Below are positions 6,349 to 62,782 of a stretch of 64,000 nt of DNA, one piece after another. Under the pieces are notes generated by a model. That model saw only the letters and a list, made by a program, of their open reading frames with translations. It made no database searches and had not been told where the DNA came from. Source of the DNA: Hoplostethus atlanticus (lineage: Eukaryota > Chordata > Actinopteri > Trachichthyiformes > Trachichthyidae); NCBI GenBank assembly GCA_034670405.1, contig JAXDDX010000071.1:378001-442000 (forward strand), written 5' to 3'. A program made the position numbers and the translations under genes. How positions within the stretch are numbered: the stretch's first letter is position 1; each line of letters begins with the position of its first letter.

Positions 6349-11141
<4,793 letters not shown>

Positions 11142-17859: not shown

Positions 17860-20800
17860 ATGTTGGTTCTGGGCACAGAAGAGCTGAAGGCAGCGCAGGA
17901 GCTTCTGAAGCAGGCATTTCCTCACTCCATCAAGGTATCATGTATAACTATTAAACCACACACCTGTGTCAAGTAAGTAGCTGTTTATTTTGTGGCATGT
18001 ACATTTCTTTCCAGGGACAAATAATTCTGTCTGTCTGACTCAATATCGGCCTGTCTGTCACACAATAATCAAATGATTGTTTTTGCTCTGATTATTCTCT
18101 CCCACTGAGGTAATAAATAATAATAATAATAATAATAATAATAAACAATAATAAACTGTTTACATGCATACCAAAAACATAATTCTCTGTTAACACCTTT
18201 TTCATCCAGTCTCAGACCAGTGATTGATTAATGTCTCACCCATGTTCAAAAAAGTTTAATATAAGTGATGTTAAACATTAATGAAGTGCAATTGCAATGG
18301 GTCTCCAATCCCCATACAGCAACAATGGAAATGTAAATAATACAAATTATAAATAAAATAAAATAATAAAATAAAAATAGGGGCAGGGACATAAACAGGG
18401 ATGGCGTTGGCTGGATGCGGGAGAGAATCAGGCTGGTAGGCTGGTTCTCTCTGCATCCAACACCGGCTGCTGGCTCATTTAGCAAAGCAACTGATCATGT
18501 TAACATGTGACTACTAGCCACTGCTAATGCTAGCTTCTACTAGATACGTTAGCTAGTGTGCTAATCAGATGTGTTAATAAAAGACAGTGATTAAGGGTTA
18601 AACATCTGTTGAACAAGTGATGTCAGTGTTGTGAAGGACTCCTATTATTATTGATTATACCCTAACTTCCAAATTCATGAACAAATGGTTTCTGTGATGC
18701 GTAACAGGTCTACGGCTGTTTATTCACCATCAACGCAGGCAAATCCCACAACCTGGAGGTGGTTGCCGACGCCTGGCCGGATTTCAGAGCTATTATATGT
18801 AAACCAAAGCAAAAGGTGACTTACTTTCAATAGTTCTTTAGTATCACTGCTGAGCTGAGCATTGCTGACAATTTTTCAATGCTGATACTATTCCCATACT
18901 TCCCATACCAGATTCAATACGATTTTCATCAATCTTTATTGAATTAGATAACGCACTCAGAGTAAATACTTTTCTGTGTAAAATTTATACATATAGATGT
19001 TCTACATTATGAGGCCACATTCTCAATGGAAATGTAAGATTTTCAGTACCTTTTGAGGCTTTCAGGTCAATACCAAAACCAAAGACATATAGAGCATAAG
19101 CACTTTATGACAGACTTTATGGGTCACGTAGTATTTGCAAATTAATTTTGTTTTTTAACCTGCTGGTAGTGCGAATGGGAGGAGTTTCATCAGGACGATT
19201 CCGCTAAATTGTCAATCACAGACAAATATACTCAATTTCTTTCCAACAAGCCCAAAAAATGGATGTACATACCCTGTACCAAGCACAACACGGGTCACAT
19301 ATCTGTCCTGTGGACCCCAGGGCTCTGCTGACCGAGAGGGTGAATACAACATCTACAGTGTCTACTCCAAAGACCAGGACAGCCTGAGACGTCTGCTCAG
19401 CTCTCCTGGCGTTCTCAACTGGGATACTTACACTCTGCTGGCAGGTAAAGTGTTTTTTCTATTCTTTTAAAAAAAAAAATCTTTTTCTACTCAGAAGACA
19501 GGAAGTCGTCGTCTTCAAAGAACTTTGAATGTCCTGGACATATTTTTTCCTACTCGACACAACCCTTTGTCCCCCCAAAACTACTCTAACCTATTCTGTT
19601 CATTCAAACTTCAATCTCCGTGTCTACATTTAACAAAAGGACAAAATAGACACCCCTTTTTAAGAAGGTTTCTAACATTTGCTGCTGTTTAGCTAATGAT
19701 ATATTCTGATAGCTGAAGATGCAGTATCAGTACCATTCTCCAACCAACTCAAACATCTTGCACTTTCCATTTCCATGCGGAATCAACCCATCCAATCCAA
19801 CCTAACCTATCAACCTATCCAATACATGTCTCATCACAATCTTCAAATATCCCAAAATAGAAATATACACATCTCTTCTCTGTGAAAAGGGCCAACTTGG
19901 GGCCAAATTAATGGATTACTCTTCCTAGTGATGACCTACAGGTATTTTGAGGCACACAACAATATGTTCCATCTATTGTCAGGATGTGACCTCTGATCCT
20001 TGACCTCCTTGACTATTGGTTGCTTGTAATGTTGGTGATCAGCGCATCAGCTATATTGTAAACAATTCTTTAAAAAGAAATCCTAAATTGTAAAAAAAAA
20101 AAAAAAAAATTGTAAAATTTCCAAAATACAAAATGCACTGGAAATGCTCCAACAGGCACATTACTAACTGTAGCTGAATTTGATTTTGACCTTTGACCTC
20201 CTTAATATTGGTTGCTTGTAATGTTAATGATCTGGAACAGAAGCTTATTCTACTGTTGCAGGCAGTAAAATATAATGTTTTTTCCCATCCGGATAAGGTG
20301 TTGACCTCCGCCACATCGATGCAGTGAAGGAGCTTGCAACTCTGAATAACGTCCCTTCCAAAGTCCAGCTCATCATGCATGAAATGATGCTGAAAGACAG
20401 CAGTCAACTAACTGCTCCTAAAAGGTGGGCCGCACAGTCTAGAAAGAAGCCCTTGCTCTTTGATTCTGAGGGGCTGACACCAAAACCTGACGTTTACCGT
20501 TGGTGTTTTAGATCGCTGAAAATTTTGCTGCTATCAAACTTCATTGTAGCTCCTGGAAATATCTCAATGCGACATCACATTGTCTGCGTTTGACCATTTA
20601 CCTGTGGGTATAAGAAAAATACACCACAAAACAAATATAATCCATCTAAATTAGACCTAGACACAATCTGGACACAATGGCATCTTTGCCATGTGTAAAG
20701 GGGGACAATGACATTGTCTTCTCATCCTTTTCCTCAGCCAACCTGGAGGCAGGCTGAGACCTTTGACCTCTGCTGATGCCGAGCTGGTAAGCAGCTCCTG

Positions 20801-21143
20801 GAAGCATGGAGGAAACAGGAACAGCTTGAATTCGGTGCTGAGTTACATCTCCAACCATCCCAGCCTGTGTGTGACCGTGGAGGGGGAGGCCACCCCAGCG
20901 TCCTGGCTGCTCGTCTACAACCACTGTGCTCTGGGTCTGCTGTTCACCCGGCCAGAACACAGGAACCGTGGCTACGCCAAGCTTCTGGTCTCCACCATGG
21001 CACCAACACTCCTGCAGCAAGGCTACCCGGTCTACTGTTTCATGGAGGAGGGCAACGAGGCGTCCTATCGGCTGTTTAAGTCTCAGGGTTTCACAGAGGA
21101 TCTGAGATTTCGCTCTGTGTGGTTTGAAGTGAACAGTCGATGA
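17860..21143 (+). CDS. Glycine N-acyltransferase-like protein, five exons
   Basis: The family transfers an acyl group from acyl-CoA to glycine or a related amino acid, usually in mitochondria. Exons are 17860-17934, 18708-18815, 19321-19444, 20298-20424 and 20738-21143, with consistent phases and a total of 279 aa, within the usual 280-300 aa. The N-terminal half has VYGCLFTINAG, EVVADAWPDFRAIICKP and YSVYSKDQDSLRRLLSSPGV, the order seen in GLYAT-like proteins. The C-terminal half is a GNAT fold with WLLVYNHCALGLLFTRPEHR, RNRGYAKLLVST (the acyl-CoA pyrophosphate loop) and GYPVYCFMEEGNEASYRLFK followed by QGF. The ATG has the context CTCACCATGT. Which GLYAT or GLYATL paralogue it represents cannot be settled, so no symbol is given. 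It is followed 640 bases later by rbbp9 on the same strand. Confidence 0.9.
18112..18145. repeat. (TAA)n microsatellite
   Basis: About ten ATA/TAA units in intron 1 of the glyatl-like gene. Confidence 0.9.
19960..20260. mobile_element. Two SINE-like fragments in glyatl-like intron 3
   Basis: The motif TGACCTCCTTGACTATTGGTTGCTTGTAATG at about 20000-20036 recurs as CCTTAATATTGGTTGCTTG at about 20200-20220. Each is followed by TGATC and AAGCTTATTC-like sequence. They belong to the same dispersed family as 21180-21355. A poly-A run at 20092-20110 separates them. Confidence 0.5.
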
Positions 21144-30049: not shown

Positions 30050-31850
30050 TGCTGCTACTTAAGCTCCCATGTAGGGTGTCCCTCTGCCTCTCTACCAGTT
30101 CAACCTCCGATCATTATCCGTATATGCTTCCTTTATTAGACCGGATCCCCCAGCTATTGTAGCTATTCAAAGAGGGCTTCTGCCATGATCATTTTGGTGA
30201 TCCACCACCATCTCTGGTGGTGTTTGCACTCGGAGAAGATTTTGTAAATCCATATTGGTAATTGGCTCCTCTATCACTCAGCTAACTGGGGTATTACATT
30301 ATCGCTCATTTAGCTCACACCGGCTAATCTATGACACTGATCCTCCATCAGTCAACCAGCCCTCTATCAGGTAGTTGACCCTACTCAGTCAGCGTCTCTA
30401 ATGTTACCCCATGGATTTTGTCCACCAAATCCATTCCGTGATACACAACATGCATTTAGTGCCCGCACTAAATGCCACTGCCACCTGATTGTCCCACCCC
30501 TTGATGTGCCGGATTTCAAGACTATAAGGCTGCAGGAATAGAGACCAGCACACCTGTGGGAGTAATAAACGAAGAAATCTCTCTGGCTCTTGGAGACAAA
30601 GGCACCTGCCAGTACCCCTTCAACAGGTCAAACTTACTCACAAATTATGTAGAACCAACACAGTCAACACAGTCCTCCATACGAGGGAGTGGGAATGAAT
30701 CAGGTTTTGTGACGTTGTTTACCTTACGAAAATCTGAACAGAACCTTGGTGTTTTGTCAGCCTTAGGAACCAGCAGATAGGGAGAGGCCCAACTAGAGTT
30801 ACAGGGTTGAGCAATGTCAATTATCAAGCATACACTTTACCTCTGAGTCTAGACGGTTGCGTTTCTCTAAAGAAACGCGATAGAAGCGCTGTCTGATGGG
30901 CTGAGCATCCCCCACATCAATGTCTTGTTCTATCCAGTGTGTGCGAGTTGTTCAACCGGCCACAATTTCACCTCTCACCAAATCTGAGGTGAGCATCACT
31001 TTATGCAGTGGGACAGACAAGGTTGTTAAACCCATCCCCCGGATCAAGATACAATCCCCTGCATCTGTCTCCTGAGAAAAAGGCAGCACTGACTCCAGCA
31101 CAAATTAATCAGAAGCACCAGTATCTCTTAAAATTCTGACTGGCACCTTTTTATCACTCCCAGCAATTGACACATAACCCAGGTGTGATAAAGAGCAGAG
31201 TAAGTGGAGTAAGTGGAGTGGCCCCATCTGGACTGTCCATCAGATGGGGCCACAACCTTAACCAGACATGTAACCGGAGCAGCTAATGCGACAGATTTTA
31301 CCTGGGCATTACCACTTACATGTCTTGCTTTAACGTTAAGGACAGGGCACTCCATTTTCCAGTGTCCCTTCCCGTGGCAATAATTACAAACCTTAGGCTC
31401 AGACTTTCTAAATGCACTATGAACAAATTCAGGTGAGGTAGGACGGACACCAGTAGTATTTTCAAAAACAATACCAGTACGAGGTTCTCCATAGGTACCT
31501 TTGTGAATCAGTATATATTCATCAGCTCGAGCAGCAGCCTCAGTAGCAGTCTTCACCTTTCGCTCATTTAAATAAACATCAGGGAGTTTTTAAACTGTTC
31601 AAACACAACTAAATCACACAGCCCCTTAAAAGTCTGAGTATCTGTAGCAGTGCACCACCGATTTCCCGTGCAAATTCTACATGGGTCTGTTTATGTCCAT
31701 TCTTCAAGTTCTAAAACATTGATGGTAAGCCTCTGGAACTAACTCATAGGCTTTTAATACCTTAACTGTTGAATAGGTCTCACTGTCAGCTGGGGTCAGA
31801 GCAGAATAGGCTTCCTGGGCTTTTCCAGTCAAAACACATTACAGTATTAA
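30050..31850 (-). mobile_element. Ty3/Gypsy LTR retrotransposon fossil, internal part only
   Basis: On the minus strand, 31556-31128 holds a gag-type segment with a CCHC zinc knuckle, and 30827-30645 holds a reverse-transcriptase segment of Ty3/Gypsy type. The part between probably derives from the protease region. No clear LTR pair was found, and both ends are approximate. The element is broken, with several interruptions and much of pol missing. It is old enough that its ends have been lost and lies beside the decayed NLR fragment. Confidence 0.75.
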
Positions 31851-33715: not shown

Positions 33716-36449
33716 GACCACACTGCTGAAACAGAAATGCAAGAAGGTCCGATTGATCTTTGCCAAGACAAAGGGTGAACAGAAAGATGGCCACCCATTC
33801 ATTTAAACTCAAGTTGCTCACACAGCGCATACAAGTTTTTTATTTTCTTGGCTTGCTTCCGTGTTGTGTGGCCAGTGGAGCATGCGCATTAGTGTCTTAG
33901 TGTCTACGCACTGCCGCCAGTAGTAGCGTGCCCACGTCATCAGGTGAACAGGTCGGGCGCGAGGGAGCCTGCCGGCAAGAATGGCCAGTCTGGTAAGAGC
34001 AGGAGTAGAGAACCTGAGCTTAGAGCTGCTTTGCCTGGATAGTTTTGTGTTGCACGTCTTATGGGGAAATGTACTCATGAAGCCAGGATACTTCAGACAA
34101 AATATTAAAATGAGGTATTCTATTGCACTTTGTTTGCACAGATTTTTTTTTGTCACCAGTGGTGAATTTATACACAAATGTCATATGTAGCTGTGACACA
34201 CTACAAACATTTATGTATGACATTGTTTGACTGTTAAAATGTTCCTATATGAGTGTCTGTTCCTCTTGTGAAGGAAAAAATAACCTCATTCAGGTGCCCC
34301 CCCCCCGGTCGAAGGTCATGGGTCTTCCAGCAGGACAAGAACCCAAAACACATCCAAAAGCACCCAGGAATGGTACATTGGACTGTTCTGGAGCGGCCAA
34401 AGAGGAGTCCTGAACTCATATCCCATTGAGAACCAATGGCGAGTTGGTCAAAGGAATCCTTCAAACATTGAAGAAGTGGAGGGGGTTGTAGTTGAAGAGT
34501 GGGAGAAACTGCCAGCATAAAAGCACAGAAAGCTTATTGATGGTTACAAGAAACGTTTGGAAGCATCGTCATTACCAAAGCCTGTACAATTAAATATTAG
34601 AGAAGGTGCCAACAATCATGGCCACTTTTGTATTCTTATTGTTTGATCATGTGCTGTTAAATAAAACAGCCGAACGTGTGAAGACTGAAAGTTGTTTCAA
34701 TTTCCAAATATTTCAAGATGATAAAATGCAAGGCTGCCAATAATCTTGGCCAGAACTGTACGTCTGTCAGGACTGTACAACAATATGTTCCCATTCTTTG
34801 TTTGTGCAATTTCCAAACTTATCAAGGCCTGGAAATTATGAAAATCTTTTTTTCAAACATTTCCAGACCTGGGTAGGAATCCTGCACAAAGCAAACAAGG
34901 CCACTGTACTTCGTTTTCCAGGTTTATTAAACTCAAGATAAATACAAAATAAATTCACATGGATCACAGATCGCTGGGACCAACATCAGGTTTTCATCAC
35001 AGAGAAAAAAGCAACAAAAGGAGAGCTGGAGATCAGAAGTTCAACCACTCTGTCATGTAGATACAGTTGGATGGAGAGATTTCTCCTCCTTCTTGACAGT
35101 CGTCAAATACCTGTGGAGAAAAGAGGAAAGATCCCATATTACAGAGGGTTCAGATTTAGTCTGTAATGCTTCACACTACCAGATAATCCTTGCTGATCTC
35201 CTCTAGTGCATTTCCACCTTAAGCAGGTGAATTAGAGGAGCTTGAGTTGTCAGCCAATCAGGGTCCAGCATTGTGAGGACTTAAGTCTTCACATTCATTC
35301 AATGTAACTAATTCAGTTGAACTTTTAATAGTACATTTGAAAACAAAATCATGAAAAACAAATAATATGGAACCTTTAATATTCAATTTACCTCAACACA
35401 AGTTTACTTGTGCAAGGCACCAACACTGCTGGATTTAGGATTTGATAGACTGATACTAGTGTTGTAATTGGACAAAATATAATAAAATGTCAAAAATGAT
35501 CTTGTAATTGTATTAACTGACATGAATATATGTAATACATTATGAAAGAAACCAGCACTTGTTGCATAAGAAGGGGTGTGGCGATGTGTAACAAGCCATG
35601 TTGAGGTGTCCTTGAGCAAGACCTTGAACCCCTCATCCTGGAGAAGTCAAGAGCAATACTTACCGGGCAAATGCCGCAGGGAGCCTTGACCAGACCGGTG
35701 GGCAGGATGATGGGGTTGACGCCACGGTAAAGCTTCATCTGGCCGTCCACGCTGCCCACTGTGCCCTCCTTGGCGGCGATGATGGTCATCTCCACCGTGC
35801 CGTCGTAGATCAGTGTGTTCAGGATGGTTTCGATGTCCTCCATGGACGGGTCCACCTGGAAGCCAAGGAGAGCAAACATCATTTATGATTTCATTTTCTT
35901 CACTACTTCAATATCCATGTTATCCATGTATCCTATTGTGTCATTCGGAATTGGTTTCTCATCTCCTAGCAAACATTTTTATATATGTGGCATTTGGAAC
36001 CCTAATGTCTTTCTGGGTCTAGACCAAGTTAAAACCAAGACCAGAGTCCTATTCAAGACTGAGACCAAAATAGGCAGCAAACAGTGTACATATCTCTCCA
36101 AAAGTAAATGTAATTATTAAGGAGTTTCTTAAGGATCTAGAGAGATGGAGGTCCATCTGCAGGAGCTCCGCACTAAACCCTTCAACATCCAACTAAATGC
36201 ACCGAGGTTTGAGGACCATTACTATATACAGGTGTAAATAAAACAAATGTATCCATTTTTATATGGGCAGGAAAAAGTCAACGGAAAAAGTAAACATCCT
36301 GTAGTGGTGAAACAAAGCCATAATAGGCATGAGACCGGACTCAGGATGGAGACTGGACTCTGGTACTACATCCCTGGTAATGTCTAACTGAAAGTCACCT
36401 TGCTGATGCCCAGTTCACAGATGTACTTCCAGACTTCGTATGATGTGGC
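33716..36449. repeat. Segmental duplication, copy A (copy B at 52579-55308)
   Basis: These 2734 bp match 52579-55308 (2730 bp) in direct orientation with only scattered differences, by eye roughly 98-99 per cent identical. The copy begins inside a Tc1 transposase reading frame and ends inside polr3f exon 7. Copy B has intact polr3f beyond the right junction and more Tc1 sequence beyond the left one, so copy A is the derived copy. Past 36449 the sequence (TCAATCTACTCCG) is unrelated to polr3f. Confidence 0.92.
35033..36449 (-). pseudogene. Partial polr3f duplicate (end of exon 7, exon 8, exon 9)
   Basis: Minus-strand pieces at 36449-36399 (last 17 codons of exon 7), 35855-35664 (exon 8) and 35110-35033 (exon 9 with stop) match functional polr3f. 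The splice sites and frame are kept, with three amino-acid changes in about 106 residues (H to Y, L to P in VDLSMEDI, K to T in YDGKVEMT). The first six exons and the promoter are absent, so a working subunit cannot be made. The 3' UTR and its AATAAA are copied as well. Recent origin is inferred from the low divergence. Confidence 0.88.
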
Positions 36450-40090: not shown

Positions 40091-40132
40091 TGCATGTATG
40101 TGAAATAAATATTGAAACCATGGATGTGTTCT

Positions 40133-40332
40133 GTATGTTCTTTATGTTCTGTATGTTCTGTATGTTCTTTATGTTCTTTATGTTCTGTATGTTCTTTATG
40201 TTCTGTATGTTCTGTATGTTCTTTATGTTCTGTATGTTCTTTATGTTCTGTATGTTCTGTATGTTCTGTATGGTCTTTATGTTCTGTATGTTCTTTATGT
40301 TCTGTATGTTCTTTATGTTCTGTATGTTCTTC
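40133..40332. repeat. 10-bp minisatellite (TATGTTCTGT / TATGTTCTTT)
   Basis: About twenty units alternating TATGTTCTGT and TATGTTCTTT. Open frames over it on both strands (one reading EHTEHK repeats on the minus strand) are products of the repeat. Confidence 0.92.
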
Positions 40333-41072: not shown

Positions 41073-41080
41073 TATATATA
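41073..41080 (+). promoter_or_regulatory. TATA box of the lysozyme-like gene
   Basis: CTCTATATATACGCG is followed about 30 bases later by CACACAAAGCAGCAAGCTG, a plausible transcription start. A noncoding first exon probably spans about 41105-41146 and ends at the donor GGTCTG/GTAAGA. It would be joined to the coding exon through the acceptor GTGGTCTAG just before 41931. This is inferred from signals only. Confidence 0.5.
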
Positions 41081-41394
41081 CGCGCTGAAGTGTTCCTCTG
41101 CACACAAAGCAGCAAGCTGTCATCAGGCAACACTCAGCAAGGTCTGGTAAGAAACTGATTTAGTGTCAGTGATGTTTGTTAGTGCTCTTCTATATCACAG
41201 CAAACGGTTTTGATATTTAAGATTATTATTGGCAGTAACAGTAGTATTTTAAATACTTTTACTCCTCACCTGTAATTACCAGATATTATATACACACTAA
41301 GTTTGGTCTGAAAAAAATATTGATATTGCTCTGGCAATTTGTCTCAGCCTTTCAATCAAATCCATTAGGTTGTGTTTGCAATGTATTATTATCA

Positions 41395-41490: not shown

Positions 41491-41935
41491 GTAATTTAAT
41501 TATTGAGTAACAACCCGAGATATCACAGTAATATTATATTACAGTACACACTCCCTCACACACTCATGATGGTAGCCATCATGAAAAAAGCGTTGTTTTT
41601 TTGTAGTTAATACAGTTTTAAGTACAACCCATTAAAATAGTTGGTCTTTTGGCACATTTGGGACATTTTACAATTGCAAACAACTGCTTCAGCCAGAATC
41701 TCAGGCCCACAGCTATGCTACATTTATGACCTGACATTGTACCTTATAAAGCCTTAAACCAATGTATATATATAATACAGCCGTAAAACATGTCTGCTCC
41801 CATTCAGACACAAGAATCATCACATCTTTACAATTCCCTGACCTGGATAACGTACATCTCACAGAATCAAGGAAATTAATTATTCTTCCTAAATGTGTGA
41901 CCACGCGGTTCATTCTGTGTTGTGGTCTAGATATC

Positions 41936-44204
41936 ATGAAGGTGTGGCTGCTAGTGGTGCTGGCCGTGGCGGTCCTGGCCCCCAGGCTGTCGGAGGGCCG
42001 GAGAGTCTCTAGATGTGAGCTGAAGACCAAACTGGACAAGGCCCTGAGGCTGCCCTACTGGCTGGAATGGTATAGGGATTACATCTTGAAGAAAGGTGAG
42101 GTTATGAGTGGCGGTGATTGAGAAAAGCATGTAGCACCCCAACCTTTTCATTGGAGCTGTTCAGCTGTATTGAATTTGTCTCTGCTTTCACAATGTCCCT
42201 CCATTTTTCCTATACCCAGTTTTTGTACAAACCTAAGTTGTAAGGTTTTCAAAATGAAGTAATATGAGTAATATTCCCCCCCTTCATTGACTGCTTGGTC
42301 TCCCCCATTGGGTTTTCCAGTCTTAAATGGGAATGTGTATAACTATAAATAATAAATTAAACTTTCAGATTACACGTTAGACTGAGAAAATATTTCTAAG
42401 TGTTGCCGACTCTATAGAGTACCTCATAAACCTGTATTTACTCTATATACTCTATATATATATATATATATATATGAACCGACTTCTCTGGTCTGAGGGA
42501 ACCTGAAGACTACTGGAGATGCTGCAGGCTCTTTGAACTCGGTGGAAACTCTTCGGTCTTCGGTCTAACTGGTCTTTCTCCTCTTGTCTCATCTGTGTGG
42601 TTTGGTGCAGTTGTCTGTGAAGTGGAGAGGAGAAGCCACCTCAACACTGACCTGGTGAGAGTCTTCGGCAAACGCAAACCAAAGCCTACGACGACAGTGA
42701 GACCAACACTAGCACCAACTATCCGGCCAACAGCAAAGCCAACAGCAAAGCCAACAGCCCGGCCAACAGCAAGGCCAACAGCCCGGCCAACAGCAAGGCC
42801 AACAGCCCGGCCAACAGCAAGGCCAACAGCCCGGCCAACAGCAAGGCCCGGAAACGCCACTCAAGTCAGGGGAAAGAGAGAGGCGAGCGAGGAGAGCGAG
42901 GACTTCGAGGCACAAACCGAAATGGAAGACACCATGCAGGACTTGATACACGAGGAAGAGGACAAGACCAACGAGGCCGGGGAGGAGAGGGAGGGGGAGG
43001 GGGAGGGGGAGGGGGAGGAGAGGGAGGGGGAGGGCAAGCCAGCTGATGAAGAGGAGGGTAACATTGAGACGGATGAGGGGGAGGAGGAGGAGGAGGGCAA
43101 GCCAGCTGATGAAGAGGAGGGTGACATTGAGACGGATGAGGGGGGTGAGGAAGACGTCGAGGAAGGTGGCAGCAGGAAGAAGAGGTGGACCCACAGGAGA
43201 TACAGATACAGATACAGGTACAGGTACTGGTCCCTTGGGTACTACGGTCTGTTCCAGCTGAAGGACAGCGTCCACTGTGATTCAGGATACCGCCACTCAA
43301 GGAATTTCTGCCAGAAAGCCTGCAGCGGTGAGTCTCCAGCAGACCTGGCCGTCAAATCAATAATCAATTATTACATCATGAACTCAATTAGTAACATTTT
43401 GTTTTGCATCCCCCCCTCAGCCTTCACTGATGATAACATTACGGATGACATCGACTGCTTTGTGAGGTCTCGCGCCTGGTTGTAAGTACTGCACAGCAAT
43501 GTTTAGTACTAAAACCGCTAACCATGACTAGTGTTAGTTTCCATGTATCTTATATTATATAGTTTAGGCATTTAGCTGATACTCTTATCCTGAGTAACTT
43601 CCTAGATCACCAACCTGTCAAGCAACCAATAGTAAGGAGGTCAGAGGTTGCAGCACCCTGACAACAGATGTCATAAATATTTCTGTGTCTTTATGAAAAT
43701 CATGTATGGTAAAAAAGTACTAGGTAAAAAAAATAAAAGCCAGGAGAAAGTGACGGGACTCCTTCACTTAAACTATCTCTTATTTCCCTGGTTATCATAA
43801 TATATCATTAGAGGAAATACGATAAAACGATCCTTGAGGGAAATAAGGGTGTTGCAGCAGCAAAATTAATAGGATTCAGCTGAGAAAACAACAAAGAATA
43901 TAAGGATAAAAAAATATAAAATAAGTAAAAAAACAAAAAGGGAATAAAATAGAAAAGCACGAAATAAAGACTAAATAAAAAAACACCACAGCAATGAACG
44001 TTTAGCACCAAAATGAAACAAAAAAACAAGAATACCACTTTAAACTTGGATTACCACATTTGAAATATTTGAAAGCAGGTGTAGTGAACCAAATTAATGA
44101 GTGCTATGTTTGATGAGTGCTGTGCTATGTCTGACTCCATCAGGAGACTGGTGAAGTACGGGAGATGTAGGCCCGGCTGGAACTTCTTCGCCAACTGTGA
44201 ATAA
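41936..44204 (+). CDS. C-type lysozyme-like protein with large basic/acidic insert
   Basis: Coding exons are 41936-42095, 42611-43327, 43421-43481 and 44144-44204, with consistent phases, giving 332 aa against about 145 for a normal c-type lysozyme. Residues 1-21 are a signal peptide. All eight lysozyme cysteines are present: RCEL, VVCEVE, VHCDSG, FCQKAC, DIDCF, GRCRP and ANCE. YGLFQLKDSVHC matches YGIFQINSRYWC. The catalytic Glu (position 35) is Arg61 here, and the catalytic Asp is Tyr/Gly in SLGYYGLFQ, so muramidase activity is unlikely. Between the second and third cysteines lies an insert: about eight A-R/K-P-T tetrads (residues 84-136), an N-A-T glycosylation site, RGKR (140-143), about 98 Glu/Asp/Gly-rich residues, RKKR (242-245) and an RY-repeat. 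Both R-x-K-R sites suit furin. The insert is continuous with exon 2 and open throughout. Function is unknown; a cleaved two-chain secreted peptide is inferred. An AATAAA lies at 44493-44498. Confidence 0.85.
43560..43680. mobile_element. SINE-like fragment in lysozyme-like intron 3
   Basis: TTAGCTGATACTCTTATCCTGAGTAAC, then CCTAGATCACCAACCTGTCA and TAAGGAGGTCAGAGGTTGC, match the dispersed family seen at 13800 and 21175. It falls inside intron 3 between exons 43481 and 44144. Confidence 0.5.
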
Positions 44205-44601
44205 GCAGCCGTCAGGAAACACCCAACATCACCTGCAGACGGCGTCCGGACAGCGACTTCATCCTGTTAGTGCGTCCCCTAGGCCTGTAACTGCACCTCC
44301 TAAATCTGTTAAAGTGCTTAAAATGGTTTGAATTCTGATCAATACCTTGCTCCAGGGTTAGGGTTAGTGAAGTCAGTTAGCTTCGGTTTCTTTAGGATGA
44401 ATGTGAAGTAAAACTGACACACTTGTTGTTCTTTACTGCTTTAATCAACAATTACACCGTGATGATTGATGATTTTCTCTGTGATGATTTACAATAAAAA
44501 TTAATTTTCCTCCAAAAAAAAGTATTTATAATTTGATTACTGATTAAAGTTACTGTTTTGTAATCAGATTACTGTAATCCTCAAGGACACATTCTCTAGT
44601 G

Positions 44602-44805
44602 CAGGGGTGTCAAACCATGTGCCATGAAGGGCCGAGAGTATGCAGGTTTTCGTTCCAACCCAAGAATACAGCAGGTGATTCCACTGATTACCACACCTTC
44701 ACCAGAGAGGAGGGACTAATCAGTGAAATCACCTGGTGTAGTGTTCGGTTGGAATGAAAACCTGCATACTCTCGGCCCTCCATGGCACACGGTTTGACAC
44801 CCCTG
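44602..44805. mobile_element. Palindromic hAT MITE with 8-bp target duplication
   Basis: The ends are CAGGGGTGTCAAACCATGTG and its inverse CACACGGTTTGACACCCCTG. The two halves are inverse copies over nearly their whole length (GAGAGTATGCAGGTTTTCGTTCC and its partner). The target duplication CTCTAGTG is present at 44594-44601 and 44806-44813, the 8-bp size of hAT transposition. The intact duplication suggests recent insertion. Confidence 0.9.
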
Positions 44806-45114: not shown

Positions 45115-45298
45115 ATTAAATAAGGTTTTTACTGCCCCATAGAACAAAATAACCGCAATATATCTGTGGGGGGTTTATACGGTTGCTGATCAATACCAAT
45201 GAGTCATTGATTACTTTGCCAAAACTCACGTTCCAGCCTGTACTCTGTTATGGAACAGAAACTACCCACCCACTGGAGATTCCAGATCCTCCCAGTCT
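45115..45298. mobile_element. MITE fragment related to 57330-57594
   Basis: GTTTTTACTGCCCCATA, TCTGTGGGGGGTTTATACGG, GTTGATCAATACCAATGAGTC-like text and CAAAACTCACGTTCCAGCC follow the same order as in the element at 57330-57594. It stops just before exon 2 of the second lysozyme-like gene. Left of it, 45040-45110 carries another common repeat (CCAGCCACCAACCAAATGC). Confidence 0.6.
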
Positions 45299-45320
45299 CC
45301 CCTCGACCGACTAGCATTTT

Positions 45321-46729
45321 GTTGTCCGAAGTGATGGTGCTGATGATAGTGATGATGATGGTGCTGATGATAGTGACGATGATAATGATCGTGGTGATGG
45401 TGATGACGATAGTGATGGTGATGATGATAGTGATGATCGTGGTGATAGTGATGATGATGATAGTGATGATGCTGGTGGTGGCTTGGCAGTAGAGAGCCAG
45501 TCAGGGAGGACCAGCACCACAGCAGAACAGGTTGAATCTGACGCAGACAACAGAGCGGGTGAATGTGAGGAGGAGGATGATGAAGCACAAGCGTCATCAT
45601 ACGCTCTGACAGGAAAAAGATCTTTGGACGGACCCAGAGGAGGGGGGGGGTCCGGTCCCGACGGTCCAGCAGCCTCTACGGTATCTTCCAGCTGAGTGAT
45701 GGCGTGGCCTGCCTCTCCAACACCAGGGCTCGGTCCGCCAACCTCTGCAGGACACGCTGCAGCGGTGAGCGCAAAAGATGAAAACCTTGCATCTTCAAAA
45801 AAAAGTCCAAAACATTCTCAGGATAAGAATCTTTTTAGATTGACCACCTTATATTTTTTAACGTCATGCTGGTCATTGAATGGGTTCCATGGTCCCACAG
45901 CTCCTCCCAGAAAAAAACTAAAATTGTATTGATCTTTGATGTGGTGGCAGCAGCGATGCTATTAATTGTATTATTAGTTTCATTATTCTTCTTCTACCCC
46001 ACAATTTCTCCATATCCCTCTCGTTACAAACTGGATATACAGTATACTGATACTTCTAATATTGGCTCCATATTCTTACATAGAATATTGATCCTGATCC
46101 CTTCTTTCACTCTATTCAGTTCTATACTAATGATACTGGCACTATTTCACTGTTAGTAAATCCAAGTCTATAGTCTAAGTCTATACTCTTTCCCACACTT
46201 CCCACTCTTACAATCTGCTTAACGTGTTGAAATTGTCAGCTTCATATGTTTCCAAAAGTGAAAATTGGTTCTATTCTATTTCGTATTGCTTTTTAATATT
46301 CTATTTGTATGCTTATATTCTATATTTTTTTCTGTTTTGCTTTCTGCTGCAAAAGTCCGAATTCCCCCACAGGAATAAATACGGTTTAATCTTAATTTAA
46401 CTTCATACCCTTCCAGCTTTCACTGATGATGACATCCAGGACGACATTGACTGCTTCCTGAAGACTCGGGCTTGGCTGTAAGTTATAAACATCCATAAAA
46501 ACAGGAAACACCCCACTTACATCCCCTACACTTTACACAGCAGCAGTGTTTTCACCAGCAGTGGTGCTACGGCAGCGATGGCTAAGCTGTGTTTTCTTAT
46601 GTGCGTTACAGGAAGGAGCCGAATGCTTTGCGTGAATGTGCAAGAGTGGATCCCAGCTTCGTTGACTGTAAATGCCTCACCACCTCCACCTCAGAAGAAG
46701 CAGAAATAGGGAGCCGAGGCGGAAGTTAA
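45321..46729 (+). pseudogene. Second lysozyme-like gene, tandem paralogue, probably broken
   Basis: Exon 2 ends at 45764 and encodes SSLYGIFQLSDGVACLSNTR and ANLCRTRCS. Exon 3 (46417-46477) encodes AFTDDDIQDDIDCFLKTRAWL and has the same 61-bp length and phase as in the first gene. Exon 4 (46612-46729) encodes KEPNALRECARVDPSFVDC plus a short Ser/Glu tail. Six of eight cysteines are kept. The insert is Asp/Ser-rich (45331-45480), then Glu-rich, then GKRS. No first exon or signal peptide is found upstream, where a MITE lies instead. The second cysteine is replaced (SEV where the first gene has CEV). The insert frame and lysozyme frame differ by one base across a run of nine G at about 45643-45651. 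That shift may be real or a sequencing error. Confidence 0.68.
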
Positions 46730-49868: not shown

Positions 49869-50473
49869 ATAATAAACCGAGGTGAAAAACAATAGGGTTC
49901 TACCCCTTCGGGGTTTGAACCCTAATAATAAACCGATACGAAAACAATAGGGTTCTACCCCTTCGGGGTTTGAACCCTAATAAACCGATACGAAAACAAT
50001 AGGGTTCTACCCCTCCGGGGTTTGAACCCTAATAATAAACCGAGGTGAAAAACAATAGGGTTCTACCCCTCTGGGGTTTGAACCCTAATAATAAACCGAT
50101 AGGAAAACAATAGGGTTCTACCCCTCCGGGGTTTGAACCCTAATAATAAACCGATAGGAAAACAATAGGGTTCTACCCCTCCGGGGTTTGAACCCTAATA
50201 ATAAACCGAGGTGAAAAACAATAGGGTTCTACCCCTCCAGGGTTTGAACCCTAATAATAAACCGATAGGAAAACAATAGGGTTCTACCCCTCCGGGGTTT
50301 GAACCCTAATAATAAACCGATAGGAAAACAATAGGGTTCTACCCCTCTGGGGTTTGAACCCTAATAATAAACCGATACGAAAACAATAGGGTTCTACCCC
50401 TCCAGGGTTTGAACCCTAATAATAAACCGATAGGAAAACAATAGGGTTCTACCCCTCCGGGGTTTGAACCCTA
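49869..50473. repeat. Tandem array of eleven hairpin units (55-56 bp)
   Basis: Each unit has AATAATAAACCGA, a short A-rich spacer in two versions (TAGGAAAACAAT or GGTGAAAAACAAT), and a stem-loop built from AGGGTTCTACCCC, a short loop, and GGGGTTTGAACCCT. The stem is about 12 bp with one bulge. Hairpins start at about 49893, 49948, 50000, 50056, 50111, 50166, 50222, 50277, 50332, 50387 and 50442. Loop bases vary (TTC, TCC, TCT, CCA) while the stem is kept. A single hairpin of this type normally ends the neighbouring element, so this looks like expansion of its terminus. Confidence 0.88.
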
Positions 50474-50965
50474 CTAATTATGTAATGAACATGTGCTTCA
50501 GTCTATTTTTGAGAAGTATGACTTTTTAAGCTTTTTTTTTTTTTACATATTTTTCATTACATCATCTTAGTGTATCATAAATGTTTTCAGAAAATATGCT
50601 TGAAATACTGTAATTAAGACAAGCTTAGTTGTACTTCAGAAAAGTATCATTTCAAACATGAACTACACAGTATTTTTCAAAAATACATTTTATTCAGTCT
50701 TAATGCAATATCATTTAACATTTCTTTTCACAAGTATGTTAACATTTAACCATCAATAGTGCATTTCTGACAAGAGTACACTAAATGGGAGGAGTTGCAG
50801 GCAGTTTGAGCACTCCACTAAAAACCTGTAAATATACAGTACCTCAGTACCAGTAACTGTAGATCTAAACGACTATAATGTATGACTGCACATAAAATAA
50901 GGGTACACTGATTTCAGTGGTTAATTTTGCTTTTATAAAAAAAAGTATTTTTGTCCCTTCCACAG
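50474..50965. other. AT-rich spacer, nothing recognised
   Basis: It contains a T run at 50532-50543 and no coding signal. It ends in a pyrimidine-rich acceptor CCCTTCCACAG. Confidence 0.4.
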
Positions 50966-52199: not shown

Positions 52200-53612
52200 A
52201 ATAGTCTGATCTGTCTGTGAAAATGGTGAAGAGAAAAGAGCTGTCTGAGGATGTCAGAAAAAATATTATCGCCAAGCATAAGCGTTCACGGGGCTATAAG
52301 ACCATCTCCAGAGACCTTGGTATTCCTGTTTCCACAGTTCGCAATGTTATTAAGAAGTTTGCAGCTCATGGGGTTGTTGAGAATCTCCCAGGACGTGGAG
52401 GTAAGAAGAAAATTGATCTCAGATGTCGCCGAAGGTTGGTGCGAGCCATTGAAAAAACACCTCGCATCACATCCGAAGATCTCAAGGCTGACCTGGAGAG
52501 GTCTGGGGTAATGGTTTCAGCCCGTACCATACGCCGGACACTGAACCAAGAAGGGCTTTACGGTCGGAGGCCACGGAAGACCGCACTGCTGAAACAGAAA
52601 TGCAAGAAGGTCCGATTGATCTTTGCCAAGACAAAGGGTGAACAGAAAGATGGCCGCCCATTCATTTAAACTCAAGTTGCTCACACAGCGCATACAAGTT
52701 TTTTCTTTTCTTGGCTTGCTTCCGTGTTGTGTGGCCAGTGGAGCATGCGCATTAGTGTCTTAGTGTCTACGCACTGCCGCCAGTAGTAGCGCGCACACGT
52801 CATCAGGTGAGCAGGTCGGGCGCGAGGGAGCCTGCCGGCAAGAATGGCCAGTCTGGTAAGAGCAGGAGTAGAGAACCTGAGCTTAGAGCTGCTTTGCCTG
52901 GATAGTTTTGTGTTGCACGTCTTATGGGCAAATGTACTCATGAAGCCAGGATACTTCAGACAAAATATTAAAATGAGGTATTCTATTGCACTTTGTTTGC
53001 ACAGATTTTTTTTGTCACCAGTGGTGAATTTATACACAAATGTCATATGTAGCTGTGACACACTACAAACATTTATGTATGACTGTTAAAATGTTCCTGT
53101 ATGAGTGTCTGTTCCTCTTGTGAAGGAAAAAATAACCTCGTTCAGGTGCCCCCCCCCCCGGTCGAAGGTCATGGGTCTTCCAGCAGGACAAGAACCCAAA
53201 ACACATCCAAAAGCACCCAGGAATGGTACATTGGACTGTTCTGGAGCAGGCCAAAGAGGAGTCCTGAACTCCTATCCCATTGAGAACCAATGGCGAGTTG
53301 GTCAAAGGAATCCTTCAAACATTGAAGAAGTGGAGGGGGTTGTAGTTGAAGAGTGGGAGAAACTGCCAGCATAAAAGCACAGAAAGCTTATTGATGGTTA
53401 CAAGAAACGTTTGGAAGCATCGTCATTACCAAAGCCTGTACAATTAAATATTAGAGAAGGTGCCAACAATCACGGCCACTTTTGTATTCTTATTGTTTGA
53501 TCATGTGCTGTTAAATAAAACAGACGAACGTGTGAAGACTGAAAGTTGTTTCAATTTCCAAATATTTCAAGATGATAAAATGCAAGGCTGCCAATAATCT
53601 TGGCCAGAACTG
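52200..53612 (+). mobile_element. Chimeric Tc1 element: N-terminal transposase, foreign middle, Tc1 3' end
   Basis: The frame 52217-52669 encodes the Tc1 paired-type DNA-binding half (MKMVKRKELSEDVRKNI, GYKTISRDLGIPVSTVRNV, PGRGGKKKIDLRCRRRLV). It stops shortly after. From about 52670 to 53155 the sequence is not Tc1. From 53160 Tc1 resumes with FQQDKNPKHTSKS, the second catalytic aspartate block, in broken frames. It ends with the terminal repeat TAATCTTGGCCAGAACTG next to TA. The first catalytic aspartate region and the left terminal repeat are missing. The foreign middle contains a CpG-rich stretch with GCAAGAATGGCCAGTCTG followed by GTAAGAG, which looks like a short first exon with its donor. 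Confidence 0.8.
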
Positions 53613-55308
53613 TACGTCTGTCAGGACTGTACAACAATATGTTCCCATTCTTTTTTTGTGCAATTTCCAAACTTATCAAGGCCTGGAAATTATGAAAATC
53701 TTTTTTTCAAACATTTCCAGACCTGGGTAGGAATCCTGCACAAAGCAAACAAGGCCACTGTACTTCGTTTTCCAGGTTTATTAAACTCAAGATAAATACA
53801 AAATAAATTCACATGGATCACAGATCGCTGGGACCAACATCAGGTTTTCATCACAGAGAAAAAAGCAACAAAAGGAGAGCTGGAGATCAGAAGTTCAACC
53901 ACTCTGTCATGTAGATACAGTTGGATGGAGATATTTCTCCTCCTTCTTGACAGTCGTCAAATACCTGTGGAGAAAAGATGAAAGATCCCATATTACAGAG
54001 GGTTCAGATTTAGTCTGTAATGCTTCACACTACCAGATAATCCTTGCTGATCTCCTCTAGTGCATTTCCACCTTAAGCAGGTGAATTAGAGGAGCTTGAG
54101 TTGTCAGCCAATCAGGGTCCAGCATTGTGAGGACTTAAGTCTTCACATTCATTCAATGTAACTAATTCAGTTGAACTTTTAATAGTACATTTGAAAACAA
54201 AATCATGAAAAACAAATAATATGGAACCTTTAATATTCAATTTACCTCAACACAAGTTTACTTCAATAGGTAGAGCAAGGCACCAACACTGCTGGATTTA
54301 GGATTTGATAGACTGATACTAGTGTTGTAATTGGTCAAAATATAATAAAATGTCAAAAATGATCTTGTAATTGTATTAACTGACATGAATATATGTAATA
54401 CATTATGAAAGAAACCAGCACTTGTTGCATAAGAAGGGGTGTGGCGATGTGTAACAAGCCATGTTGAGGTGTCCTTGAGCAAGACCTTGAACCCCTCATC
54501 CTGGAGAAGTCAAGAGTAATACTTACCGGGCAAATGCCGCAGGGAGCCTTGACCAGGCCGGTGGGCAGGATGATGGGGTTGACGCCACGGTAAAGCTTCA
54601 TCTGGCCGTCCACGCTGCCCACTGTGCCCTCCTTGGCGGCGATGATGGTCATCTCCACCTTGCCGTCGTAGATCAGTGTGTTCAGGATGGTTTCGATGTC
54701 CTCCATGGACAGGTCCACCTGGAAGCCAAGGAGAGCAAACATCATTTATGATTTCATTTTCCTCACTACTTCAATATCCATGTTATCCATGTATCCTATT
54801 GTGTCATTCGGAATTGGCTTCTCATCTCCCAGCAAACATTTTTATATATGTGGCATTTGGGACCCTAATGTCTTTCTGGGTCTAGACCAAGTTAAAACCA
54901 AGACCAGAGTCCTATTCAAGACTGAGACCAAAATAGGCAGCAAACAGTGTACATATCTCTCCAAAAGTAAATGTAATTATTAAGGAGTTTCTTAAGGATC
55001 TAGAGAGATGGAGGTCCATCTGCAGGAGCTCCGCACTAAACCCTTCAACATCCAACTAAATGCACCGAGGTTTGAGGACCATTACTATATACAGGTGTAA
55101 ATAAAACAAATGTATCCATTTTTATATGGGCAGGGAAAAAGTCAACGGAAAAAGTAAACATCCTGTAGTGGTGAAACAAAGCCATAATAGGCATGAGACC
55201 GGACTCAGAGACTGGACTCTGGTACTACATCCCTGGTAATGTCTAACTGAAAGTCACCTTGCTGATGCCCAGTTCACAGATGTACTTCCAGACTTCGTGT
55301 GATGTGGC
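52579..55308. repeat. Segmental duplication, copy B (source copy)
   Basis: This is the counterpart of 33716-36449. Here the block is continuous with the Tc1 transposase frame on the left and with the rest of polr3f on the right, so this is the original location. Confidence 0.92.
53777..53782 (-). terminator. Polyadenylation signal of polr3f
   Basis: TTTATT on the plus strand reads AATAAA on the minus strand, about 105 bases past the polr3f stop codon. The only other minus-strand candidates nearby are weaker variants. Confidence 0.6.
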
Positions 55309-61206: not shown

Positions 61207-62782
61207 CACTACTGGTCAAAAGTTTTAGAACATCCCCCATTTTTCCAGTTTTTATTGAAATTTAAGCAATTCAAGTCCAGTGAATAACCTGAAAAGGTAC
61301 AAAGGTAAGCGGTAAACTGCTAGAGGTTTAAAAAAAAGTTTAGGTCAGCAAAAAATGAAAAATAATGTAAATTTCAGAGTTTTTTTTCTTTTTTTAAAAG
61401 GCCTTTTTCAGGGAACACATAATGGGTTAAGACCTTACAGCTGTTCTGCAGCAATGGAAGTAAATTAAGCCTTGAAAGTTGATGCAAACAATTCCTACAG
61501 GTATCCCAACTTTTGTTGATTACTTGATTACAACCCCCCTGTCTGTATAAAAGCAGTGTTGGAACAGACTGTTATTACACCCTCTGAAGCATTATTTGGA
61601 AAATATTGCACTGCAGGAAGTAGTATATTGCTATCATAATGGTGAGAAAAAGGCAATTAACAAAGGAAGACAGACAGACCATTGTAACCCTTAAAGGTGT
61701 AGGTCTTTCCTTTAGAGAAACTGCAAAGAAAGCCAAGGTGTCAGTGAGTACAGTTTCCTACACCATCAAAAGGCATTTAGAAACTGGAGGAAACTCTGAC
61801 AGGAAGAGGTCTGGCAGACCCGAAGCCACAACAGAACCAGAAGATAAGTTTCTGAGAGTCAACAGCTTGCATAATAGGTGGCTCACAGGACAACAGCTTC
61901 AAGCACAACTTAACCCTGGTCGAAGTAAGCAGGTCTCAGTTTCAACTGTGAAGAGAAGACTTGGAGCTGCAGGTTTTACAGGTCGAGTGGCAGTAAGAAA
62001 GCCATTGCTAAGATGGCAAGAAAAAGAGGCTTGCCTGGGCCATGAAGCACCACCAGTGGACTTCACCAGTGGAAGAAGGTCTTCTGGACAGCTGAATAGG
62101 CGAAAGGTTAGTTCTTCAGTGTGTGACACCAACTGTCAAACATGGAGGAGGAAGTGTGATGGTCTAGGGCTCTTTTGCTGAATCCAGAGTCGGCGACTTG
62201 CACAGAGTGACTGGCACCCTGAACCAAAAGGGCTACCACAGCATTTTGCAGCACCATGCAATACCCTCTGGTTTACGCCTAGTTGGTCAGGGGTTCATCC
62301 TACAGCAAGATAATGACCCAAAACATCCCTCCAGGCTATGTCAGAACTACCTTCGAGGAAAAGAACAAGACGGTAGGCTTCAAATCATGGAATGGCCAGC
62401 ACAGTCTCCAGACTTCAACCCCATCGAGCTGGTTTGGGATGAAGTGGACGGAAGGGTGAAAGCAAAGCAACCTACAAGTGCAACACATTTGTGGGAACTT
62501 CTGCAACAGTGTTGGGAAGAACTTCCTGAACAATATTTGATGTCCATTGTACAAAGAATGTCACGAGTGTGTTCGGCAGTTATACCTGCAAAAGGTGGCT
62601 ACTTTGAAGAGTCAAAAATTTAGATAAAAATTATTACACACAAAATTATTCTATGTTGTTTTTTTTTATCTCCAATTCATTTGTTCTATGCTTTAATTTC
62701 ACAGTACATTGAGTCATTAAACTGTAAATTTCAATAAAAACTGGGAAAAATGGGGGTGTTCTAAAACTTTTGACCGGTAGTG
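61207..62782 (+). mobile_element. Nearly complete Tc1/mariner element, transposase inactivated
   Basis: It is 1576 bp, flanked by TA on both sides, with inverted ends CACTACTGGTCAAAAGTTTT and AAAACTTTTGACCGGTAGTG. The terminal repeats extend some 55 bp. The transposase starts at 61639 (MVRKRQLTKEDRQTIVTLKG, paired-type HTH, with SGRPEATTEPED as the linker). Its second catalytic block FILQQDNDPKH and third block SPDFNPIELVWDEVDGRVK lie in the frame 62198-62623. The frame is lost around 62020-62200, where the first catalytic aspartate (normally WTDES) reads WTAE followed by a stop. It is probably non-autonomous now but still mobilisable in principle, since both ends are intact. Confidence 0.92.

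Follow-up and report, generated by a model that had tools for sequence, protein, structure and literature searches.

Gene structure of the lysozyme-like locus

Within the window, by which we mean the whole 64-kb stretch of DNA analysed here, a gene of four coding exons (gene A) lies on the + strand at 41936–44204, with GT/AG at all internal borders and a spliced open reading frame of 332 residues. A 5′-truncated, frame-shifted relative (copy B), with an acidic tract of its own in front of the same half-domain, follows 1.1 kb downstream. Coding exon 1 of gene A (41936–42095) encodes a signal peptide of about residues 1–21 and breaks off within the codon for lysozyme position 28; with signal cleavage placed by eye, the putative mature chain begins RRVSRC, in which the first Cys corresponds to lysozyme position 6. 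Coding exon 2 (42611–43327) encodes the second to fifth cysteines of the lysozyme pattern together with a long insert, coding exon 3 (43421–43481) the calcium-loop-like stretch AFTDDNITDDIDC, and coding exon 4 (44144–44204) the seventh and eighth cysteines and the stop codon.

Motif scans located a TATATA box-like element (41073–41078, + strand), about 30 bases upstream of the probable transcription start as placed by eye, and an AATAAA that is probably the polyadenylation signal (44493–44498, + strand). A probable non-coding first exon with an approximate start (41100–41146, + strand; donor CTG/GTAAGA) would rejoin at 41931; it was recognized by eye and is unscored.

Exon 2 is open in a single frame, the other two frames containing 5 and 14 stops, and its coordinates in the earlier note agree with those of the spliced 332-residue model. 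Two of the exon borders interrupt the codons for residues 54 and 293, which are equivalent, judged from the cysteines, to lysozyme positions 28 and 82, and the third interrupts the Leu codon directly after Ala-Trp. C-type lysozyme genes are usually divided into four coding exons, with breaks near codons 28, 82, and 108 of the hen gene, and the breaks in gene A agree with this. Gene A is very probably a real member of the lysozyme family whose insert is coding.

The remainder of the window contains several other features. On the + strand, ORFs with a MYND finger (6349–7017) and a 2OG-Fe(II) oxygenase domain (9846–10286), which are probably parts of an EGLN1-like prolyl hydroxylase gene, are followed by a GNAT/glycine N-acyltransferase-like ORF (20763–21143; FR47, Gly_acyl_tr_C). 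On the − strand, an ORF at 31128–31556 with a CCHC zinc-knuckle-like stretch CNYCHGKGHWKMEC, which matched nothing in Pfam at 0.01, is perhaps a gag remnant. Also on the − strand, at 35490–35882 and 54353–54745, exon ORFs for Rpc34 (a subunit of RNA polymerase III) form a near-identical pair whose flanks resemble each other by eye; this pair seems to be a segmental duplication bracketing the lysozyme-like locus, in which the copy at 54353–54745 seems to be part of a fuller gene and that at 35490–35882 looks fragmentary. Tc1/Sleeping Beauty-type transposase remnants occur on the + strand at 52217–52669 and 61639–62623 (the ORF at 62198–62623 being named by eye), and a pair of inverted similar arms (..GGGCCGAGAGTATGCAGGTTTTC.. 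and its reverse) at 44607–44805, between gene A and copy B, is by eye likely a small palindromic transposable element. Minisatellites are present at 7787–8472 (a long repeat with two + strand frames open), 40127–40330 (a 9-base unit, TGTTCTGTA), and 49900–50480 (a repeated unit with AATAGGGTTCTACCCCT and GGGGTTTGAACCCTAATAATAAACCGATA, by eye). Rfam at gathering scores gave no match in the 64-kb window. The Tc1-type transposases and the gene content indicate that the host is probably a teleost.

Family membership and loss of the catalytic residues

The whole gene A protein matches the Pfam Lys family (PF00062) at 45.8 bits against a cut-off of 27. The match covers residues 265–306 only, and the N-terminal half by itself scores 13.5 bits, which is under the cut-off. 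All eight c-type lysozyme cysteines are present in the family order (residues 27, 56, 276, 287, 291, 305, 321, and 331), with 28, 219, 10, 3, 13, 15, and 9 residues between successive cysteines, whereas the corresponding segments of hen lysozyme have 23, 33, 11, 3, 13, 20, and 11. Therefore, besides the insert, the segments C6–C30, C95–C116, and C116–C128 differ from those of the hen protein (28, 15, and 9 residues versus 23, 20, and 11), the latter two being shorter in gene A.

When the insert was omitted, a PDB search returned as its top match the milk-isozyme lysozyme C 2z2e (E 1e-10), behind which ranked further lysozymes C, the lysozyme of horse milk, and lactalbumins. In total, 249 distinct PDB sequences passed a threshold of 0.001, and the best 60 of the 249 are all named lysozymes or alpha-lactalbumins. 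The nearest known proteins are thus the milk-type calcium-binding c-type lysozymes (2z2e and 1el1, which we take to be from dog, and horse 2eql), with which gene A shares the 8 cysteines and the calcium-loop acids.

In contrast to these proteins, gene A carries Arg at the position aligned with Glu35 and Tyr at that aligned with Asp52/53, so that both catalytic acids are gone, and it has the insert of about 185 residues. No muramidase activity is therefore expected, and, judged from these residues, the product cannot be a normal muramidase. Conversely, the acids of the calcium loop are kept in the alignment (AFTDDNITDDIDC in gene A against KFLDDNIDDDIAC) and are present in both gene A and copy B. 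With the calcium-ligand Asp residues of AFTDDNITDDIDC identified as we assume them to be, gene A has the Asp ligands by which a calcium-binding lysozyme is recognized at the sequence level. An N-I-T sequon at residue 298 (exon 3) lies within the calcium loop of gene A, and copy B lacks a sequon there; a glycan on N298 could block the predicted calcium binding.

Like gene A, alpha-lactalbumin is non-catalytic, has the calcium loop, and belongs to the same fold family; the alpha-lactalbumin chains matched in the PDB have 121–142 residues, without such an insert. According to passages of PMC5104373, alpha-lactalbumin is confined to mammals and helps lactose synthesis, and SLLP1/LYZL4 of mammalian sperm and testis are further family members that, as in gene A, lack the catalytic residues; those passages mention neither an insert nor convertase sites for SLLP1/LYZL4. 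The role of alpha-lactalbumin is to regulate galactosyltransferase, and the lineage of gene A is, judged from its context, non-mammalian.

A profile of the two half-domains was also run against viral contigs, where 234 stretches matched the pattern and none was confirmed, and against prokaryote genomes, where three loci were obtained from 63 stretches; neither collection was expected to include fish relatives. Two of the three prokaryotic loci are taken as chance matches, one within a Mur-ligase-like ORF (L001) and the other on the strand opposite a dehydrogenase-like ORF (L003), both ORFs being named by eye, and L002, from a further Spirochaetia genome, involves the same 20 residues of the query.

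Anatomy and charge of the insert

Between the second and third cysteines, gene A has 219 residues as compared with 33 in hen lysozyme. This gives about 185 extra residues, close to the approximately 190 proposed in the earlier note, which had assigned the second to fifth cysteines to exon 2. The insert position is presumably the region of the first beta-hairpin of the lysozyme fold.

In order, the insert on the + strand consists of GKR at residues 73–75 (42667–42675), a dibasic site with Arg at P6 where further cleavage is possible; T/A-R/K-P-T repeats with an N135-A-T sequon (residues 76–139, 42676–42867), a basic segment of net +14 that corresponds to the Pfam PT repeat; the furin-type motif RGKR on the N side (residues 140–143, 42868–42879); an acidic block (residues 144–241, 42880–43173); and the furin-type motif RKKR on the C side (residues 242–245, 43174–43185). 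Glu (40) and Asp (10) make up 51% of the 98 residues of the acidic block, whose net charge is −45. Beyond RKKR, the chain resumes with the alternating Arg-Tyr stretch WTHRRYRYRYRYRYWSLG (43186–43239) and then YYGLFQL, which aligns with DYGIFQL of lysozymes. The basic repeat with its glycosylation site, the acidic segment of about 98 residues, and the two flanking R-x-K-R motifs had all been described in the earlier note and were recovered here, with RGKR and RKKR falling exactly at the charge borders.

The computed net charges are +25 for residues 22–143, −45 for 144–241, +8 for 246–332, and −8 for the whole mature chain. By these charges, gene A shows the two features of an antimicrobial-peptide precursor with an acidic propiece, a predicted cationic product and an acidic segment that balances it. 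The features of a furin-type substrate, R-x-K/R-R and a signal peptide, are likewise found as predictions, the former as RGKR and RKKR and the latter by eye.

At the DNA level, both tracts of the insert are mostly tandem repeats, with units of 12/24 bases and 63 bases. Of 10 A-R-P-T units scored, four are encoded with GCC CGG and four with GCA AGG, both specifying Ala-Arg, and two with GCA AAG, specifying Ala-Lys; the last GCA AGG unit finishes in Gly instead of Thr. The synonymous GCC CGG and GCA AGG units are consistent with a translated repeat, although, with units that arose by amplification, this evidence is weak. Circumsporozoite proteins also matched the A-R-P-T repeat, a low-complexity resemblance that was dismissed, and the Pfam matches to Pneumovirus G and a flavivirus propeptide were under the cut-off.

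The insert might be wholly or partly removed as an intron, leaving a short eight-cysteine protein. A strong unused donor-like sequence, CTG/GTGAGA (42652–42660, + strand; last exon base 42654), lies at the start of the insert and scores 8.9 bits by approximate scoring matrices, within the range of the used donors (11.1, 9.3, and 6.0 bits). Joined, for example, to the acceptor at 43258, which at 4.1 bits is stronger than the exon 2 acceptor (2.4 bits) and weaker than the other two (7.4 and 6.9 bits), it would remove 603 bases, a number divisible by three, so that the product stays in frame; further in-frame donor/acceptor pairs exist. However, such splicing would also remove YYGLFQ, which lies in or adjoins the Pfam Lys match, the best acceptor near the true insert end (43197) scores just 1.0 bits, and donors of at least 8.9 bits number 30 on the + strand of the 64 kb, or approximately one per 2 kb by chance. 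We consider removal by splicing improbable, because its product loses YYGLFQ, which copy B mostly keeps as LYGIFQ.

Chance occurrence of the paired convertase-type motifs

The occurrence of the two motifs was compared with that in shuffled sequences. In 37,594 of 200,000 whole-protein shuffles, at least two R-x-[KR]-R motifs were present, so that a pair of motifs is ordinary in itself, because the protein is so rich in Arg. In contrast, motifs close to both actual borders, each no more than 5 residues away, were found in 133 of 200,000 whole-protein shuffles, a test that overstates the case, since the borders were set by charge. Local shuffles yielded a motif by chance in 2% of cases on the RGKR side and in 33% on the RKKR side, and RKKR alone is accordingly weak evidence. 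These figures somewhat favour border sites that did not arise by chance.

These results bear on two other explanations of the insert. In the first, the insert is not removed: its A-R-P-T arm would serve as a stalk, mucin-like or glycosylated, and its acidic block as a tail that binds calcium or mineral, in the manner of acidic matrix proteins from the otoliths, bone, and teeth of fish, and the R-x-K-R motifs would be incidental or partly used. The Pfam PT disordered repeat, the N-glycosylation sequon, the calcium-loop acids kept in gene A and copy B, and the Glu-rich block of gene A together with the Asp/Ser-rich block of copy B all agree with such a protein. Nevertheless, two convertase-type motifs sit exactly at the borders of the block, and sites of the furin type, where exposed, are often cut in secreted proteins; we regard a retained insert as rather unlikely.

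In the second, repeats would have expanded neutrally in a loop of a decaying family member that has lost its enzymatic function, with the charge and the R-x-K-R motifs as by-products of GAG/GGG and CCA/ACA/GCA repeats. The tandem repeats that run through most of both tracts, the truncated and frame-shifted state of copy B, and the frequency with which shuffled proteins contain two motifs are as this predicts. Against it, the open reading frame, splice sites, and 8 of 8 cysteines of gene A are intact, and 8 of the 10 A-R units (GCC CGG, GCA AGG) differ synonymously only, the other two having Lys. In addition, neutral growth does not account for the constraint on the half-domain, nor for an acidic tract written in unrelated codons at the same place in both copies, both described below; taken together, these observations make it unlikely.

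A second, truncated copy downstream

Copy B (+ strand) has an acidic open frame at 45315–45620, Asp/Ser-rich and then Glu-rich. Counted from the stop in front of it up to GKR, this frame has 102 residues, among them 33 Asp and 8 Glu (40% acidic), with a net charge of −34, and it terminates in ALTGKR. At a run of nine G (45642–45650), the acidic frame gives way to the lysozyme frame, after which RSRR and the half-domain SSSLYGIFQLSDG.. extend to the end of the exon 2 equivalent (45653–45764), followed by equivalents of exon 3 (46417–46477) and exon 4 (46612–46729) with splice-site scores resembling those of gene A. The half-domain (SLYGIFQLSDG..) scores 44.3 bits against Pfam Lys.

The half-domains of gene A and copy B are 54% identical. 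Over 51 codons, dN and dS were 0.34 and 1.13 by NG86 and 0.31 and 0.85 by LWL85; the bootstrap range of dN/dS was 0.11–0.73, and the ratio reached at least 1 in 4 of the 951 usable replicates (of 1000). By these sequence measures, the half-domain is under constraint.

In copy B, KR precedes LYGIFQ by 53 bases; the corresponding distance in gene A, between RKKR and YYGLFQ, is 54 bases. An acidic tract followed by KR at a near-equal spacing favours an old, maintained acidic block. Blastn of one acidic tract against the other gave a single match of 25 bases with an E value of 1.3, which is noise; tract A is rich in GAG/GGG and tract B in GAT/AGT, and tract B past 45471 lies outside any tandem array. 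Since the tracts have no real DNA match and unrelated codons, either the acidic tract would be older than the duplication, its charge having been kept while the DNA turned over, or it would have arisen twice.

With respect to the paired-site layout, copy B has the acidic block and, on the C side, KR and RSRR, the latter nearer the fold; no N-side basic cleavage site is visible in this truncated copy, and the matching KR is part of TGKR, with Thr and not Arg at P4. Exon 1 of copy B was not found by tblastn in the 64-kb window at E values up to 10. A transcript joining exon 1 of gene A to copy B was ruled out, because the best acceptors, at 45296 and 45332, are out of phase with the acidic frame as worked out by hand, and a stop precedes that frame. 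Copy B is probably a pseudogene; otherwise, the nine-G run would be an assembly error. As a parallel, passages of PMC3141428 describe mammalian Lysc1 copies that lost exon 1 as pseudogenes.

A proposed processing model for the gene A product

Our best reading of the sequence, to which we assign a probability of roughly 40%, is that gene A encodes a secreted non-catalytic lysozyme relative from which the acidic block is excised by a convertase, leaving a two-chain cationic protein; the C-side cut is better supported than the N-side one. This relative of calcium-binding lysozyme and alpha-lactalbumin would be made as a near-neutral precursor (mature net charge −8), whose cationic parts the Glu-rich block would neutralize and shield while the protein folds and is transported. 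A furin-type proprotein convertase would cut after RKKR, and probably also after RGKR, freeing the acidic block. Residues 22–143, with the A-R-P-T arm, and residues 246–332, starting with the Arg-Tyr repeat, would remain as a disulfide-joined two-chain cationic protein, in which the lysozyme disulfides 6–128 and 30–116 presumably pair across the two flanking pieces. Such a protein might act by charge, binding microbial or other anionic surfaces without cutting peptidoglycan.

Excision is favoured by the complete gene model with its TATA-like element and AATAAA, the Pfam and PDB matches, the border motifs, copy B, and the constraint on the half-domain. Against it stand the low-complexity repeats, which can grow neutrally, the 33% chance figure on the RKKR side, and the donor at the insert start, as well as the weak Pfam score of the N-terminal half and, in copy B, the lack of an N-side site, the TGKR, the frameshift, and the lack of an exon 1 by tblastn. 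The proposal of the earlier note that cutting at two sites frees the acidic piece and leaves two cationic chains thus holds in part: the border motifs, the charges (+25/−45/+8), and the acidic tract and KR of copy B agree with it, whereas the N-side cut and an Arg at P4 find no counterpart in copy B, itself probably a pseudogene. The earlier note mentions neither the lost catalytic acids and the kept calcium loop nor GKR at 73–75, the sequon at residue 298, the donor at the insert start, and copy B.

An extension of the excision model is that GKR at residues 73–75 is also cut, which would release a free Pro/Arg/Thr cationic peptide of 64–68 residues. The precursor would then give three functional pieces: a non-enzymatic two-chain lysozyme fold, a cationic peptide, and an acidic charge-balancing piece. 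Such a peptide would resemble proline-rich or O-glycosylated antimicrobial peptides. We consider this outcome improbable; if true, a folded enzyme domain would have become a precursor from which convertases release peptides, its acidic propiece being internal to the fold instead of terminal.

Relation to known systems

In defensin-type precursors, an acidic segment balances the cationic product and is removed by proteolysis. The likeness to gene A is one of working and not of sequence; in gene A, the acidic piece lies inside the disulfide-bonded fold, so that the product would be two chains. In the literature searched, at the level of abstracts and passages, no description of a lysozyme with a convertase-framed acidic insert was found.

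In passages of a pipefish reproductive transcriptome study (PMC3853555), one transcript has the medaka protein XP_004065665.1, "lysozyme C, milk isozyme-like", as its best match, a weak one (E 2e-7), which suggests that divergent milk-type lysozyme-like genes exist and are expressed in other teleosts. C-type lysozyme genes are absent from cod, according to a passage of PMC4914998, and one lysozyme-like gene per bony fish genome was reported in passages of a 2011 survey (PMC3141428). As compared with that count, gene A may represent a second fish locus of the lysozyme family.

Should the predicted cleavage take place, gene A would represent a lysozyme-family protein that is matured by excising a charged propiece from the middle of its fold, and would thereby exemplify a route from a lost enzyme to a processed cationic effector.
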